Positions 19,035-29,877 of a stretch of 47,015 bases of DNA are shown here, one piece after another. This DNA is from Megasphaera geminata F0357 (lineage in GTDB: Bacteria; Bacillota; Negativicutes; Veillonellales; Megasphaeraceae). Location: contig NZ_JH417569.1 of assembly GCF_000239275.1 (NCBI RefSeq), positions 1 to 47,015 of the forward strand. Direction: 5' to 3'. The translations under genes and the position numbers were made by a program. A model generated the notes under the pieces. That model did no database searches. It was not told the DNA's origin and saw only the letters and a list, made by a program, of their open reading frames with translations. The stretch's first letter is position 1, and the number at the start of each line of letters is the position of its first letter.

Positions 19035-19627
19035 TCGGATATGTAAAAGGCATCGTTACGCACATCTTTTTGAGTTCCGCTTTTGTCAATGTGCACGGCG
19101 TAGGCTATCGTGTGCATGCTCCCGTCTCGACGTTGTCACGGCTTGCCGTGGGGGAGGAAGCCCTTTTGTTCACGTATATGAATGTGCGTGAAGATGCCGT
19201 CGTTCTTTACGGATTTTTAACGCAGGATGAATATGACCTCTTTATGCTCCTCATCGGAGTAAACGGTGTGGGGCCGAAAGTGGCTAACGGAATTTTAAGC
19301 GCGGATCGTACGGACAGGCTGCGTCTTGCCGTCGCCAATAAGGAAATCGGCGTGCTCACGAAAATGCCCGGTATCGGTAAAAAAACGGCTGAGCGCATAG
19401 TTTTGGAATTGCAGGATAAGATCGGCACGGGCGACGGTGCTGCAGGTACTGCCGCGTCTGCCGAACCTGCAGTATCCGGTATCGGAGATGAAGTGACCGC
19501 TGCCCTTACGGGCCTGGGCTATTCGGTACAGGAAGCGGGTCCTGTCGTAGAACGGCTGGCTCCCGATTATGAAACTGTCGAAGACTTGCTCAGGGCTTGC
19601 TTGCGTGCCTTAGGCACGGGGAGGTAA
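19031..19627 (+). CDS. ruvA: Holliday junction DNA helicase subunit RuvA
   Basis: Tetrameric DNA-binding platform that loads RuvB on Holliday junctions. The N-terminal OB fold ([18 protein letters not shown]) is followed by two helix-hairpin-helix motifs ([17 protein letters not shown] and [19 protein letters not shown]). An Ala-rich linker and a C-terminal domain III ([15 protein letters not shown]) that contacts RuvB complete it. At 198 residues it is complete. It starts inside the ruvC stop and ends two bases before the ruvB start codon. Confidence 0.97.
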
Positions 19628-19629
19628 AA

Positions 19630-20662
19630 GTGGAAGAACAGCGTATTGTTGAAATGGACGATTTGCCCGGCGATTCGTGGCAGTACAGTTTGCGGCCCCA
19701 CTATTTAAATGAATATATCGGTCAGGAAAAGGCGAAAAAAAATCTGGAAGTCTTTATTGCAGCCGCTAAAATGCGCCGTGAGGCATTGGATCACGTACTT
19801 CTGTACGGCCCGCCGGGCCTCGGCAAAACGACGCTTGCCGGTATTATTGCCAATGAACTGGGCGTAGGCTTCCGCATCACGTCCGGTCCCGCTATTGAAC
19901 GGGCCGGAGATCTGGCGGCGCTATTAACGAATCTCCAGGAACGGGATGTTCTTTTTATCGATGAAATACACCGCCTGTCGCACAGCGTTGAGGAAGTTCT
20001 CTATGCAGCCATGGAGGACTATGCCCTGGATATCGTTATCGGCAAAGGACCGAGCGCCCGATCCGTGCGCATCGACCTGCCTCCCTTTACTCTCGTCGGG
20101 GCGACGACACAGGTAGGACGCCTGGCTTCGCCGTTGCGCGATCGTTTCGGCGTTATCAGCCGGCTGGACTTTTACCGGCCCGGAGAACTTGTGCTGATCA
20201 TTAAACGTACGGCCGATATATTGAACGTACAGCTTGACGATACCGGCGCTTTGGAAATTGCCGGCCGTTCCAGGGGCACGCCGCGTATTGCCAACAGACT
20301 CCTGAAACGCGTCCGAGATTTTGCTCAAGTTGCCGAGGCCGGCACGATTACGAGGGAATTGGCGGGAGAAGCGTTACATCGTCTGGAAGTGGACAGCTGC
20401 GGTCTGGATAGAACGGATCGGCGGGTATTACAAGCTATCATTGAAAAATTTAAACGGCGGCCCCGTCGGGCTGGATACGATTGCCGCGGCTATCAGTGAA
20501 TCTGTTGACGCGGTGGAAGACGTGTATGAACCCTTTCTCATGCAGCTCGGGTTTTTAAACAGGACTCCTCGCGGGCGCGTAGTCACCGCGGCGGCATATA
20601 AACATCTCGGTATGCCTGCGCCCATGAACGGCGATGACGGTAAGGGGCAGGCCCTTTTTTAG
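19630..20662 (+). CDS. ruvB: Holliday junction ATPase RuvB, interrupted by one frameshift
   Basis: AAA+ motor that drives branch migration with RuvA. Visible are [16 protein letters not shown], Walker [13 protein letters not shown], Walker [11 protein letters not shown], sensor [11 protein letters not shown] and the arginine finger region PLRDRFGV. The GTG at 19630 follows GGGGAGGTAAAA. The frame breaks at about 20450-20453. Removing one A gives [19 protein letters not shown], the exact RuvB consensus, and the reading then continues through the winged helix ([20 protein letters not shown]) to 20662. The repaired length, 343 residues, is standard. Loss of RuvB in an otherwise intact ruvCAB operon is unlikely, so an extra A in the sequence is the likely cause. 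Confidence 0.95.
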
Positions 20663-20670
20663 GAGCGCTT

Positions 20671-20886
20671 ATGGCAAAACTGTTGATTTTTATCGGATTG
20701 ATTTGCATTGCCGCCGGCGTTATATACCATGTGGCGGATCATACGGGTATAAGCCGTTTCCTCGGTAGTCTTCCGGGCGATATACGCATAACACGGGGAA
20801 ATACGACCTTCTATTTTCCCGTTGCCACGTCTGTTGTTATCAGTATTGTCGCATCACTTGTTGCCGCCGTCTTTTTGCGGCGATAA
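20671..20886 (+). CDS. DUF2905 family small membrane protein
   Basis: Protein of 71 residues with two membrane helices (about 3-20 and 48-68) and a conserved central stretch FLGSLPGDIRITRGNTTFYFPV that defines DUF2905. Members are often encoded beside ruvB and queA, as here. The function is unknown. The ATG is preceded by AGGAGCGCTT and lies eight bases after the ruvB stop. Confidence 0.9.
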   Translation: MAKLLIFIGLICIAAGVIYHVADHTGISRFLGSLPGDIRITRGNTTFYFPVATSVVISIVASLVAAVFLRR

Positions 20887-20903
20887 GGGAGGAGGGAATA
20901 ATA

Positions 20904-22147
20904 ATGAAGCGGTATAAACAAATCCTCGCTGCGGGGGCGGCAGCCTTTTTCCTGCTGAGCCCGGCGGCAAGCGTCCTCGCGGGGGCCCCTGATACCGTCG
21001 TCCGTATCGGCATTCGTGAAGGCCAGACTTCCGTTGCCGTTGCCGGCCCTTTTGGTGTGGGCGTGTACAGAAACGGCTCTTTATGGAAGAAATATCCGGC
21101 ACGTAAAAATATCAATATAACATACGGCGATAAAGGAATAACCGTGGACGGTGCCGCAGCCGGCGGCAGTGTCCTTCTGCGCTCCTTGGACGCGCGGGGC
21201 GCTTTGAAAATCAGCAACGGATATTCCTATCGCGGTGATTTGGAAGTCATCAAAACACCGCAAAAGCAAGGACTTACCGTCGTCAATGTCGTTCCTGTCG
21301 AAAAATATCTCTATGGCGTTGTGGGCAAGGAAATGTCCCCGTCATGGAGCATGGAAGCATTGAAGGCGCAGGCTGTGGCGGCCCGGACCTATGCGATTTC
21401 TCATAAAGGGTATTTTAAGAGCCGCGGCTTTGATATGACCGATGACACGAACAGCCAAACTTATGCCGGCGTCAACGGTGAAGCGCCGTCCGTGTTAAAA
21501 GCCGTTAAAGCGACGCGGGGCGAGATACTTACGTACGGCGGCAAGCCTATTGAGGCATTTTTCAGTGCCAATGCCGGCGGCTGGACGGAACACACCAAAA
21601 TGTCTGGGGAAATAAAATACCTTATCTACGCGGCGTTTCCGACAGCGCCGATAAAATGCCCGAATACAGATGGTCCGTTACGGTGACGCCGGAACGGTTG
21701 GCCGCCGCTCTGGCAGCGGCGGGTAAAAATGTCGGTGCGATTAAGTCCATTACACTGACACCGTTGGCAAAACGGCCGATGGCCGTGCCGGATCGCGGTG
21801 TTTCCGGCAGGGTCCTCTCCCTGACCGTAAGCGGTTCGGCCGGTCAGGCGAAAATAACGGGAAATTCTTTCCAGTCCATGACATGGTCTAAGAGTACACT
21901 TTTTGATTTCTATCAGGGCAACGGCAATCCGCCCGATCCGGATAAGGCAAAGGCCGCCCGCAGCAACGTATTCCCCGTAAAAGCGGGAACTCCTCTTACC
22001 ATCTACGGTTTCGGCTGGGGCCATGGCCTCGGTATGAGCCAGTACGGCGCCTACCAGATGGCCAGGGAGCACGGTGAGGACGCCGCGTTTTACAGAAAGA
22101 TACTCTCCCATTATTATACGGGGACGAGTCTGTCAAAGTTGTATTAA
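20904..22147 (+). CDS. spoIID: SpoIID/LytB-domain protein, interrupted by one frameshift
   Basis: Exported cell-wall protein related to the sporulation lytic transglycosylase SpoIID and amidase enhancer LytB. After a signal peptide (residues 1-26) comes a beta domain, then the SpoIID core: [44 protein letters not shown] and [14 protein letters not shown]. The frame breaks near 21597-21600. One extra A gives [21 protein letters not shown], matching the family's NVWG...PYLRSV block. It continues to [20 protein letters not shown] near the end. The repaired length is about 414 residues. In Negativicutes it need not mean sporulation. The place in the ruv-queA-tgt run is common. Confidence 0.9.
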
Positions 22148-22161
22148 GGAGTAGATTGATT

Positions 22162-23177
22162 TTGAAATTGTCGGACTTTTCATATGAACTGCCGCAGGAA
22201 CTGATTGCCCAACATCCTGTCGAACCGCGTGATGCGGCTCGGCTCATGCTGTATGACCGCGTAAGCGGGGAAGTGGAACACGCTCGTTTTTATGATCTCG
22301 TCGATGCGCTTAAGTCCGGCGATGTGCTTGTTTTTAACGATTCCCGGGTTATACCGGCGCGCCTGTACGGGACGCGGGTGCCTACAGGCGGTAAGGTGGA
22401 AGTATTATTGCTGGCCCCTGTCGGCGAAGATATGTGGGAAGTTCTTGTTAAGCCGGGTAAAAAAGCCTTGCCGGGAACCGTCATTTCTTTTGGCGACGAC
22501 CTGACGGGGACCGTCCTTAAACGAACCGATTTCGGCGGCCGCATAGTGCAATTTAAATACACCGGCGTTTTTGACGACATAATCGGACGTATCGGTGAAA
22601 TGCCGTTGCCGCCGTATATTCATGAAAAACTTGAAAACCCGGATGATTATCAGACTGTATATGCCCGCGAAAAGGGATCCGCCGCGGCGCCGACGGCAGG
22701 CCTGCATTTTACCGAGGCACTGCTCGACAGGATTCGCGCCAAAGGTGTGGAAACGGTATTTGTCACCTTGCATGTAGGGCTCGGTACATTCCGGCCGGTT
22801 GGAGAAACATTGAAGACCATGTCATGCACAGCGAATTTTACAGCATTATGCCGGCAGCCGCGGCGAAAGTGAACAGGGCAAAAGATGAAGGGCGACGTGT
22901 TATCGCGGTCGGGACGACGTCGATTCGAACACTGGAAAGCGCCGGTTCAAACGGCCGTGTCGAAGCCGGAGCAGGACGGACCGACATCTTTATTTATCCC
23001 GGATACACGTTTCGCGTTGTAGACGCGCTTGTAACGAATTTTCACCTTCCCGAATCAACCCTGCTCATGTTAGTCAGCGCCATGTCGAAACGGGAAAAAA
23101 TTCTGCGCGCTTATGAAACGGCCGTTCGTGAAAAGTATCGTTTTTTCAGCTTCGGCGACGCCATGTTTATACACTAG
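22162..23177 (+). CDS. queA: S-adenosylmethionine:tRNA ribosyltransferase-isomerase QueA, interrupted by one frameshift
   Basis: Adds the epoxycyclopentane group from SAM to preQ1 in tRNA, the step after Tgt in queuosine synthesis. Family blocks are [43 protein letters not shown] and [14 protein letters not shown]. The frame breaks at about 22805-22808. One extra A gives [18 protein letters not shown], the normal QueA sequence, leading on to [11 protein letters not shown] and [16 protein letters not shown]. The repaired protein is 338 residues, standard. The start is taken as TTG at 22162, ten bases after AAGGAG. TTG at 22156 is the alternative. It precedes tgt by nine bases. Confidence 0.94.
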
Positions 23178-27552: not shown

Positions 27553-28290
27553 ATGAGCGATTATATGCTGTCCGTCCTGCCCCGAACGGGTAGCGGCGAA
27601 GCGGAAGGAAAACGACATGATTACGGCAGTGAAATGACTGCGTATTTCGAAACTCTTTTTCCCGGCCGCAAACGTACAATTTATAAGGACCGGACGTTAT
27701 TACCGGTCGCCGTGGATGTAGCCGTCCTTCATCCGACGGCGGACGAACCTTTTTACTTACTGTATACGATCGGGATGAGTTCTCTTTCCATGGCCGATTA
27801 TTTAGGCGGTAAAGAAGGCGATACGGCTCTGGCCGAACTCTATATGATGCTTTCGGAAGATTGGTGCCTGCCGGCTTCGGCGGCCCTTTTCAGCACGGAG
27901 AAGAAGCCTTGGCCCGTGCGGCTTCTGACCGATTTGGGCCGGTTTTCCCACTTGAATAAAATGTGGCTTTCCTACGGTTTTATGTTGCCGGCCGAAGAAA
28001 GCCGTGAAACCTTTTCCGATGCCGGAGAATTTTCCGGTGCCGTCATCATTCAATTTGACGGCGAACTCGGAGAAATAAAAACGGCCGACGGCAATATAAT
28101 TCAATTATATATGCCCATGCCTCTCTATGCGGAAGAAAAAGAGTTGTACGGGACGGTCGGTCCCGATGAGTTGACAGAACGTATTTTACGGTGTAACGGC
28201 GGTTCTTTTTTGGTGAACCCCGAACGGCCCAATGCGGCCGCGGCACCTCAGACCGAAGGAAGAAGGGAGACTGTTGACGAAAATACTTGA
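27553..28290 (+). CDS. Suppressor-of-fused (SUFU) domain protein
   Basis: Protein of 245 residues with a bacterial SUFU-like domain, seen in the pattern VDVAVLHPTADEPFYLLYTIGMSSLSM near residues 57-83, in LAELYMMLSEDWCLP and in the later LYMPMPLYAEEKELY. SUFU-like proteins in bacteria are often linked to immunity or regulatory proteins, but no biochemical function is settled. There is no signal peptide or membrane helix, so it is cytoplasmic. The ATG at 27553 follows AGAGGAGACCCGCT, and a TATAAT lies about 30 bases upstream. Its last 17 bases overlap the next gene, indicating one operon with the FAD-binding protein and YqeC. Confidence 0.8.
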   Translation: MSDYMLSVLPRTGSGEAEGKRHDYGSEMTAYFETLFPGRKRTIYKDRTLLPVAVDVAVLHPTADEPFYLLYTIGMSSLSMADYLGGKEGDTALAELYMMLSEDWCLPASAALFSTEKKPWPVRLLTDLGRFSHLNKMWLSYGFMLPAEESRETFSDAGEFSGAVIIQFDGELGEIKTADGNIIQLYMPMPLYAEEKELYGTVGPDELTERILRCNGGSFLVNPERPNAAAAPQTEGRRETVDENT

Positions 28291-29086
28291 TGTGCTGTAT
28301 CCGACGACGCCGGAAGAAGCGTTAACGCTGTATAAGGAAGATGAAAATACTGTGTTTGCCGCCGGTGGCGGCGGGTTAAGGAAAAAAGACGCGTCCGGAC
28401 GTCGTATTATCGCCTTGTCTGAACTGGGCCTTGATTATATACGCGACGAGGAGGAAGAACTGGTTATCGGGGCGACGACCGCTTTAGCGGCGTTGGAACA
28501 GTCGGCGGCGGTGGAATCAATGTGTAAAGGCCTGCACTGCTGTTTTCATGATATTTATGACAAATCGGTAAAGAAAAGAGCTACGGCAGGCGGTGTTGTG
28601 AGCGGTAAATATCCTTTTTCAATCCTGCTGCCCGTACTGCTTACATTGACGGTTGACGTCGTTTTGGCAGGACGCGGCAGAATGAGCCTGGAAAATTATT
28701 TGCTTTGTCCGCCTGTCCGTGATCTCATTTGCGAAATACGGATTTTAAAAGAAAAAATACACGTATCCTATGAAGTGCTGCGCCCGCTGCCGTCTGATGA
28801 GCCCGTTCTCGTGGCAGCCGTTTCACTCAGTTCCCGGGGCTGGAATATTGTGGTCGGCGGGCGGCCGGGAATAGCGGCAATTGCTCATAATGCAGTGGCT
28901 GAATTGAATGAGAAAGGGATTAAAGCGAAGGATAACGTGGCGATCATGGTACGGGATGAGTTGGATTTTGCCGATTTCGGAGCGGCATCGGAAACGGAAC
29001 GAAAAGAAATGACGGTTGCCATGTTGAAGCGATTGCTTCCGCTTGTCTATGAAGAGTTCGGTAAGTTGGGATATACTGCGATATAA
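28274..29086 (+). CDS. FAD-binding subunit of a molybdopterin hydroxylase family (xanthine dehydrogenase medium subunit-like)
   Basis: About 270 residues resembling the CoxM/XdhB FAD-binding subunit: PTTPEEALTLYKED, the FAD loop FAAGGGGLRKK, LVIGATTALAALEQS and a second FAD-contact block ATAGGVVSGKYPFSILLPVLL. In the usual enzyme this subunit passes electrons between a [2Fe-2S] protein and a molybdenum subunit. Neither partner is encoded here. The start is taken as TTG at 28274, five bases after GGGAG and inside the SUFU gene's end. The YqeC gene follows 11 bases later, which points to selenium-dependent molybdenum hydroxylase biology. The FAD loop (GGGGL rather than GGTDL) is unusual. Confidence 0.75.
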   Translation: MTKILDVLYPTTPEEALTLYKEDENTVFAAGGGGLRKKDASGRRIIALSELGLDYIRDEEEELVIGATTALAALEQSAAVESMCKGLHCCFHDIYDKSVKKRATAGGVVSGKYPFSILLPVLLTLTVDVVLAGRGRMSLENYLLCPPVRDLICEIRILKEKIHVSYEVLRPLPSDEPVLVAAVSLSSRGWNIVVGGRPGIAAIAHNAVAELNEKGIKAKDNVAIMVRDELDFADFGAASETERKEMTVAMLKRLLPLVYEEFGKLGYTAI

Positions 29087-29097
29087 GGAGGCGGAAA

Positions 29098-29877
29098 ATG
29101 GCGGAAGATAAGCGCTGGCTGCGGCTCTTGCAGCCGGGAATTACGGCCATTGTCGGAGCCGGCGGTAAAACGACGGTTCTCGAACGGCTGGTGACATACG
29201 GGCAGGGGGCGAATTTGCCGATTATGGTGAGTTCCACCGTTCCGGCCGATACAGAGTGGCTGGGCAATGTCGGGCAAATCGACATTATCTGCACGGAAAA
29301 CAGAGAAAAGGGAGAAGCCTTCTGTGTAGAAAAAATAGCGGCAGGGCGCGCCCCCGGCTGGTTCCGTTCAGTTGATGGGGACGGTAATTATGAAGGCCTG
29401 GAGCCGGACATGCTCGACTACGTACGGGAACGGCATCCTGCCTGGTATATTATTGCCGAAGCGGACATGGCTCACCATAAATGGCTGAAAGCCCCTCTGG
29501 CTGAAGACGTGCCGCTGCCGCAGCATTGTGATACCGTTATCGGTGTGGTCAACCTGCAAATGCTGGGTTCATCCATTACGGAAGAACGGGTCGAGGGAGC
29601 CGAACAGGCGGCTCTTATTATGAATCGTCCTATGGACGCCGTAGTTACACCGGCTCTCCTGGCGAAACTGTTGAGTCACCCCCGCGGGCTCTTTCGCGGC
29701 GCGTCGGCATGCAGAGTCCTCTTCTGCAGCGGTTATAATGCTGTCCAGCACCGCATGACCGAGGCGCTTTTGGATGAATTGGAAGGCCTTGATTTGCAAG
29801 TTATCGTATTGGCTGACGGCTATAAGGAAACCTGTACTATCCGCCAGTATATTTCATGCGGCGACAATAAAAACTGA
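29098..29877 (+). CDS. yqeC: Selenium cofactor biosynthesis accessory protein YqeC
   Basis: YqeC-family protein of 259 residues with a P-loop near the N-terminus (ITAIVGAGGKTTVLERL) and a conserved acidic block IIAEADMAHHKWLKAP where family members usually read EADGA...LKAP. YqeC marks genomes that have the selenium-containing molybdenum hydroxylase cofactor pathway, alongside YqeB. The upstream FAD subunit fits this. Start ATG 29098 behind AGGAGGCGGAAA. It ends the operon, and a hairpin with a T-rich tail follows at 29898. Confidence 0.82.
   Translation: MAEDKRWLRLLQPGITAIVGAGGKTTVLERLVTYGQGANLPIMVSSTVPADTEWLGNVGQIDIICTENREKGEAFCVEKIAAGRAPGWFRSVDGDGNYEGLEPDMLDYVRERHPAWYIIAEADMAHHKWLKAPLAEDVPLPQHCDTVIGVVNLQMLGSSITEERVEGAEQAALIMNRPMDAVVTPALLAKLLSHPRGLFRGASACRVLFCSGYNAVQHRMTEALLDELEGLDLQVIVLADGYKETCTIRQYISCGDNKN

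Follow-up and report, generated by a model that had tools for sequence, protein, structure and literature searches.

Analysis of a 47,015-nucleotide stretch of DNA from Megasphaera geminata F0357 (assembly GCF_000239275.1, contig NZ_JH417569.1, the whole stretch being called the window) showed a compact plus-strand operon of three genes at positions 27553-29877, as read from the list of open reading frames (ORFs). The operon encodes a SUFU-domain protein, a lone homologue of the flavin adenine dinucleotide (FAD) subunit of molybdenum (Mo) hydroxylases, referred to below as FAD-like, and a YqeC-family P-loop protein. The preferred explanation, held with moderate confidence, is that this trio is what survives of an ancient molybdenum-hydroxylase operon and has been put to new use. 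The features of the locus are as follows.

27553..28290, plus strand: SUFU-domain protein, 245 amino acids, first gene of the operon (PF05076, E 5.6e-24)
28274..29086, plus strand: FAD_binding_5-fold protein, the lone FAD-subunit homologue (FAD-like), 270 amino acids, TTG start (PF00941, E 1.9e-15)
28361..28378, plus strand: AGGGGL, equivalent of the first FAD loop in FAD-like, from the alignment of FAD-like rows
28583..28624, plus strand: TAGGV..FSI, equivalent of the second FAD loop in FAD-like, from the alignment with hydroxylase FAD subunits
29098..29877, plus strand: YqeC-family P-loop protein, 259 amino acids (PF19842, E 7.7e-24; TIGR03172, 81.2 bits)
29155..29172, plus strand: P-loop GAGGKT of YqeC, kept and invariant across all 16 trio rows
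29236..29241, plus strand: residues 47-48 of YqeC, TT in the family and TV here, with V48 in 15 of 16 trio rows

The initial annotation had described an operon of these three genes with an overlapping SUFU gene, and this was borne out by the ORFs, the overlap and the Pfam scores. With the TTG start at 28274, which matches the relatives better than an alternative ATG start at 28232 (284 amino acids), SUFU and FAD-like overlap by 17 bases, and a gap of 11 bases separates FAD-like from YqeC. All three proteins exceeded the Pfam cut-offs, SUFU with 85.4 bits for PF05076 (cut-off 25) and YqeC with 85 bits for PF19842 (cut-off 27.6); YqeC also exceeded TIGR03172 (cut-off 73.05). The NCBIfam scan gave no match for the window SUFU, and the best model for FAD-like was TIGR03312 (YgfM-type) with 67.6 bits, far under the cut-off of 241.5. 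Because the scan of the window for promoters and terminators was no richer than shuffled sequence (2 against a mean of 3.5 and 3 against 3.5, respectively), the operon limits were placed by spacing alone.

Conservation was assessed across the Megasphaera family in 17 genomes, that of the window (G000) being one of them. The SUFU profile matched in 16 of the 17, the miss being G012, where the contig ends, and this SUFU profile matched in 0 of 44 other genomes of the order. Trio-type YqeC was found in 16 of the family genomes (missing from G003) and FAD-like in 15 (missing from G007 and G008); among these 15 carriers, G012 has only a contig-end fragment, G004 has no recognisable N-terminal part and the gene of G006 is broken. 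SUFU stood immediately 5' of FAD-like in 13 of the 15, the exceptions being G012 (contig end) and G015. In G007 and G008, SUFU was followed directly by YqeC with FAD-like gone. SUFU-YqeC is the steadier pair, and FAD-like may be dispensable. A search of the genome contigs with a single window protein found no relative; the alignment found 10 loci. The initial annotation had named a complete hydroxylase elsewhere combined with no conservation of the trio as the outcome that would count against it, and the trio proved well conserved in the family. The literature searched on Megasphaera with YqeC or a FAD-binding subunit contained nothing on the trio, and that on FAD contacts gave no result.

The order of the trio was constant while its surroundings differed, so the unit keeps its order across contexts. 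It comes after secD and secF in the window, G007 and G008. A polysaccharide deacetylase gene lay downstream of the trio in 14 of 16 relatives (L028-L041; for example L028 6881-7768), followed by aromatic amino-acid genes, and in the one locus scanned these were 3-deoxy-D-arabino-heptulosonate 7-phosphate (DAHP) synthase, prephenate dehydrogenase (under cut-off), aroB, aroA and aroC. No deacetylase gene was found after the trio in the window. Some individual loci were also disrupted. In G015 (M. paucivorans), SUFU and FAD-like are each found at a contig end, and the 3' end of SUFU is followed by foreign sequence; this sequence between the two genes (L202 2206-2291, L036 18078-18456) was judged by eye to be part of a transposase. 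In G006 (M. massiliensis, L040 8530-10121), the reading frames of SUFU and FAD-like are interrupted, those of YqeC and the deacetylase are open, and intact copies of the genes occur in relatives. In G003 (L031 9247-9280), the trio YqeC is gone between FAD-like and the deacetylase, and an ordinary YqeC is retained elsewhere.

The FAD-like profile matched in 0 of 16 genomes of families f2 and f3 of the order, and once in each of the 28 genomes of f4, a sister family in the same order that we infer to be Veillonellaceae. The 12 f4 loci that were read all showed the FAD gene followed by 2Fe-2S and Mo subunit genes, with YqeC next after the Mo gene in 11; the twelfth contig stops inside the Mo gene. 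The one f4 locus that was scanned had, after YqeC, a MocA-like gene (TIGR03310, 142.7 bits, under the cut-off of 186.45), YqeB (TIGR03309, 335.9 bits, over cut-off) and XdhC (XdhC_C domain found), and the other f4 loci were similar by eye. Across the class, the profile matched at E 1e-20 or better in 90 of 300 genomes, 47 of them outside the order, and FAD followed by 2Fe-2S and Mo genes was seen in all 20 of these 47 matching loci that were read. In the loci that were read, a FAD-like gene standing alone was confined to the Megasphaera family. Relative to the three-subunit operon of f4, the FAD gene and YqeC of the trio are homologous and in the same order, whereas the Fe-S, Mo and other accessory genes are lacking, SUFU is added and both homologues have different ligand-site residues.

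Phylogenetic analysis supported this kinship. In the FAD tree without YgfM, the trio and f4 share one side of a branch with support of 100/98 against all remaining rows, and in the YqeC tree they share one side of a branch with 100/95. The FAD trees left out the broken G006 rows, four near-identical rows and E. coli XdhB, and the one used for the approximately unbiased (AU) test further left out the truncated G004 row and E. coli YgfM; the YqeC tree left out two class-level YqeC proteins under 140 bits (L193, L197). The FAD subunit of the genus's three-subunit hydroxylase grouped with six rows from the f14 and f18 families (99/99), and this placement, away from f4 of its own order, hints at horizontal transfer. 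The first FAD loop of these hydroxylase subunits (L046 7460-11006 and nine similar loci) reads GGCCWL, with GGGCWL in 1 of 10.

Given the observed homologies, today's gene orders, the tree placements and the phyletic pattern, the simplest course of events is one in which the ancestor of the order would have carried genes for FAD, 2Fe-2S and Mo subunits, YqeC, a MocA-like protein, YqeB and XdhC, in that order. The Megasphaera lineage would then have lost genes 2 and 3 and the final three, which would have left the first and fourth adjacent, and the remaining FAD-like–YqeC pair would have come to stand behind a lineage-specific SUFU gene.

Among the 17 family genomes, MoaA was found in 15, SelD over cut-off in 13, MoCoBD_2 in 12 and YqeB in 9. 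In G004 and G014 (both 99% complete), no MoCoBD_2, YqeB, SelD over cut-off or MoaA was found; these two genomes nevertheless retain the trio, with a truncated FAD-like in G004, so maturation of a selenium cofactor fails as a general role of the trio and was rejected. The suggestion in the initial annotation that the FAD protein had taken another role in selenium cofactor maturation was therefore supported as to another role and given up as to selenium, YqeB being absent here as well. In the available text of PMC2276186, YqeC was proposed in 2008 as a marker of selenium-dependent hydroxylases, in a signature with YqeB and SelD. Both YqeB and SelD over cut-off were missing in G004, G014, G015 and G016, and the window assembly had SelD without YqeB, so the co-occurrence was not seen in these genomes. 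The available text of PMC5029168 shows that YqeC alone had earlier been proposed to serve processes unrelated to selenium; occurrence of YqeC without selenium is thus not new, and the conserved unit is the new addition.

The window assembly is 1.8 Mb and 88% complete, and absence of a gene is less certain in it than in the 99% complete relatives. It contained SelD (376 bits) and MoaA, and neither YqeB nor the Mo-subunit domains PF02738 (MoCoBD_1) and PF20256 (MoCoBD_2) were found in it. FAD-like was the sole PF00941 match of the assembly, and no Fe-S or Mo subunit gene adjoined it. The absence of Fe-S and Mo partners noted at the locus thus holds assembly-wide. The idea that the missing enzyme parts lie elsewhere does not hold for the window assembly, in which such a hydroxylase was rejected on the single PF00941 match and the lack of a MoCoBD domain; the three-subunit hydroxylases of relatives carry their own FAD subunit. 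The SelD gene of the window genome (G000:C46:108473-109396) has one in-frame TGA, as in 12 of the 13 family genomes whose SelD exceeds the cut-off (window genome included), and its product is probably itself a selenoprotein, judging from this codon. At window positions 19597-22872, RuvB and QueA measure 300 and 238 amino acids against 340 and 341 in G008, and a SpoIID-like protein (named by eye) is split into two overlapping ORFs of 260 and 163 amino acids against 422 in G008. Frameshifts or assembly errors are likely there, and gene absences in the window assembly call for caution on that account.

The trio YqeC exceeded the cut-off of TIGR03172, the model for YqeC of selenium-dependent Mo-hydroxylase systems. 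When compared with three reference groups, it kept 13 of 21 family-conserved columns, the whole GAGGKT P-loop included, and 8 were changed. Residue 48, a V in nearly all trio rows, is T in 80% or more of every reference group, and residues 137-138, the conserved E-P pair, are changed in the trio too. Besides these positions, it differs from selenium-linked YqeC in standing without YqeB in the window assembly and, in four relatives, without a SelD above the cut-off, and a separate, ordinary YqeC is present in 10 of the 17 genomes. At the three loci read (G013, G003 and G001), the ordinary YqeC has MocA-like, Mo-transport-like and MoaA genes in its vicinity, and YqeB is as much as about 20 kb off; the Mo-transport label, and the MocA label in two of the three loci, were assigned by eye. 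The model of the trio YqeC (predicted local distance difference test score, pLDDT, 65.6) gave weak structure matches, the top ones mostly P-loop nucleoside triphosphatases (NTPases) and one under 1e-3 (MipZ, 5.8e-4), and its profile gave a single match against solved structures at E 0.22, which was taken as chance. The residue pattern suggests that the trio YqeC would be a live NTPase with another ligand. The ancestral role gives scant guidance: in the available text of PMC11448449, deletion of yqeC alone in C. difficile gave no clear phenotype, and a yqeB yqeC double mutant was incompletely complemented by yqeB, hinting at a part for yqeC.

Structure comparison of FAD-like showed a Z of 18.2 and a root-mean-square deviation of 2.9 over 204 residues between its model (pLDDT 65.7) and 3hrd_C. 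Foldseek with the model gave 34 matches with an E value no higher than 0.001, every one a molybdenum-hydroxylase chain, as were all 11 matches of the profile against solved structures (best E 5.1e-10); the single sequence gave one match, at E 0.1. The predicted fold is that of the molybdenum-hydroxylase FAD subunit, with altered loops. Polar positions of both FAD loops are mostly replaced in the trio. In the second loop, all 14 trio rows (the broken G006 row being retained in these counts) carry hydrophobic residues at the Asp column (D after S) and at the N/S column following GG, and D and S stand at those two columns in the hydroxylase rows of the genus (10/10) and of f4 (12/12). The first-loop GGGGL, which had been singled out earlier, is present and, among the aligned rows, peculiar to the window genome, while the relatives read AGAQGL, AGTQGL, AGGQRL, AGGKGL, AGAQEL and AGGQRH; it was rejected as a special feature.

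A tentative reading of the new use, possible and short of an even chance, is a three-protein NTPase module made of genes 1 and 4 of the hydroxylase operon plus SUFU, which would handle a cofactor or client unrelated to molybdenum and selenium. In the mechanism proposed for the preferred explanation, YqeC would act as a nucleotide-hydrolysing switch whose intact P-loop would drive a step of client-protein handling or insertion, and its altered T48 and EP positions would mean a ligand other than that of the Mo/Se ancestor. The FAD-subunit fold would serve as a docking scaffold inherited with YqeC, probably without bound FAD, and SUFU, a versatile protein binder, would pick or shield the client. 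In the available text of PMC3482391, bacterial SUFU domains are widespread immunity proteins that bind varied proteins. Ratios of nonsynonymous to synonymous substitution rates (dN/dS) were 0.057-0.097 for FAD-like (5 of 7 pairs computable), 0.019-0.077 for YqeC (6 of 7) and 0.064-0.125 for SUFU (5 of 6), and these low values argue against plain decay, in hydroxylase-bearing genomes only.

Several points weigh against the preferred explanation. G003 (100% complete) retains SUFU and FAD-like but not the trio YqeC, which it has lost and which can therefore be dispensed with. A tree forcing the trio together with the hydroxylase FAD of Megasphaera was not rejected at 5% (p-AU 0.0755); the trio branches are long, and the kinship of the trio and f4 FAD sequences appears strong without being closed. 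E. coli YgfM has V at the Asp column and E at the N/S column, which weakens the case for loss of FAD binding in FAD-like. The lack of molybdopterin synthesis in G004 and G014 was judged from one marker, MoaA. All dN/dS pairs came from hydroxylase-bearing genomes, while the hydroxylase-free genomes have long FAD-like branches (0.86 in the window, 0.77 in G014 and 1.01 in G004), N-terminal loss in G004 and gene loss in G007 and G008, a pattern that fits relaxation there.

It is less probable, and on balance unlikely, that the trio is a slowly decaying relic in which SUFU and YqeC form the working pair and FAD-like is a passenger that leaves once the hydroxylase is gone. The loss of FAD-like in G007 and G008, its missing N-terminus in G004, its broken frame in G006 and the long branches of the window and G014 would all suit such a relic. 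Of the 10 genomes that have a fused Fe-S/Mo hydroxylase, 9 also had an intact FAD-like, compared with 3 of the 6 judged to be without one (G012 being set aside, as its contig ends at the locus), but the difference was not significant (Fisher p 0.118). Furthermore, dN/dS of FAD-like was low in all five computable pairs, its frames are open in the window and G014, and G013 keeps it intact yet has no fused hydroxylase. In G006, the gene is broken although hydroxylases are present.

That FAD-like serves in trans, as FAD subunit or maturation factor of a Mo/Se hydroxylase encoded elsewhere, is distinctly unlikely. The fused Fe-S/Mo enzyme occurs in 10 of the 17 genomes with no FAD gene beside it in any of the ten loci read, and that of G001 is a TIGR03311 selenium-dependent xanthine dehydrogenase. 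However, no MoCoBD_2 protein was found in G000, G004, G007, G008 and G014, three of which keep FAD-like, and G004 and G014 have no MoaA. The fused enzyme of G015 is an NF045668 aldehyde oxidoreductase, a type not known to need a FAD subunit, and the three-subunit hydroxylases of the genus come with their own FAD gene.

It is improbable, too, that FAD-like still binds FAD and, with YqeC serving it, works as a stand-alone flavoprotein such as an electron carrier or a diaphorase. The fold is kept, AG of the first loop is retained in 13 of 13 rows having the loop and T.GG in most rows, and YgfM, a hydroxylase-operon protein and the type of the best NCBIfam match, likewise lacks the Asp. FAD-like differs from the YgfM type in its low score and in having no adjacent Fe-S/Mo gene. 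Against FAD binding stand the replaced polar positions, the complete loss of the first loop in G004 and the model itself, in which segments under pLDDT 50 include residues 30-40 (first loop) and 112-115 (just past the second loop).

A SUFU immunity gene lying beside two unrelated genes, in an operon without common function, has next to no probability: the PF05076 domain is common to the window SUFU and the immunity proteins of PMC3482391, but the trio SUFU sits in a fixed chromosomal operon, overlaps FAD-like in the window and precedes it immediately in all but two FAD-like genomes, which are explained by contig ends (with foreign sequence in G015), and no toxin was recognised among the genes read, with no search aimed at toxins made. 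PADLOC gave zero matches for the three window proteins, and a defence-system role was rejected. A home of YqeC in phages was also rejected, as tblastn of a phage collection gave no match. The SUFU profile had no match among solved structures. An ExbB/ExbD pair comes after the trio in the window.

The trio is probably a conserved remnant of a known operon type that has been reused, and it offers a clear case of an operon without its enzyme in which accessory parts are retained. In Megasphaera, YqeC's database label of "selenium cofactor biosynthesis protein" can be misleading, and the persistence of YqeC where MoaA and SelD were not found lets this presumed NTPase be studied apart from selenium. 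If the NTPase-module reading is true, it would be the first defined role of YqeC outside selenium metabolism in the literature searched, as far as the available text of those sources goes, and a flavin-subunit fold would have been reused as a cofactor-free adaptor.

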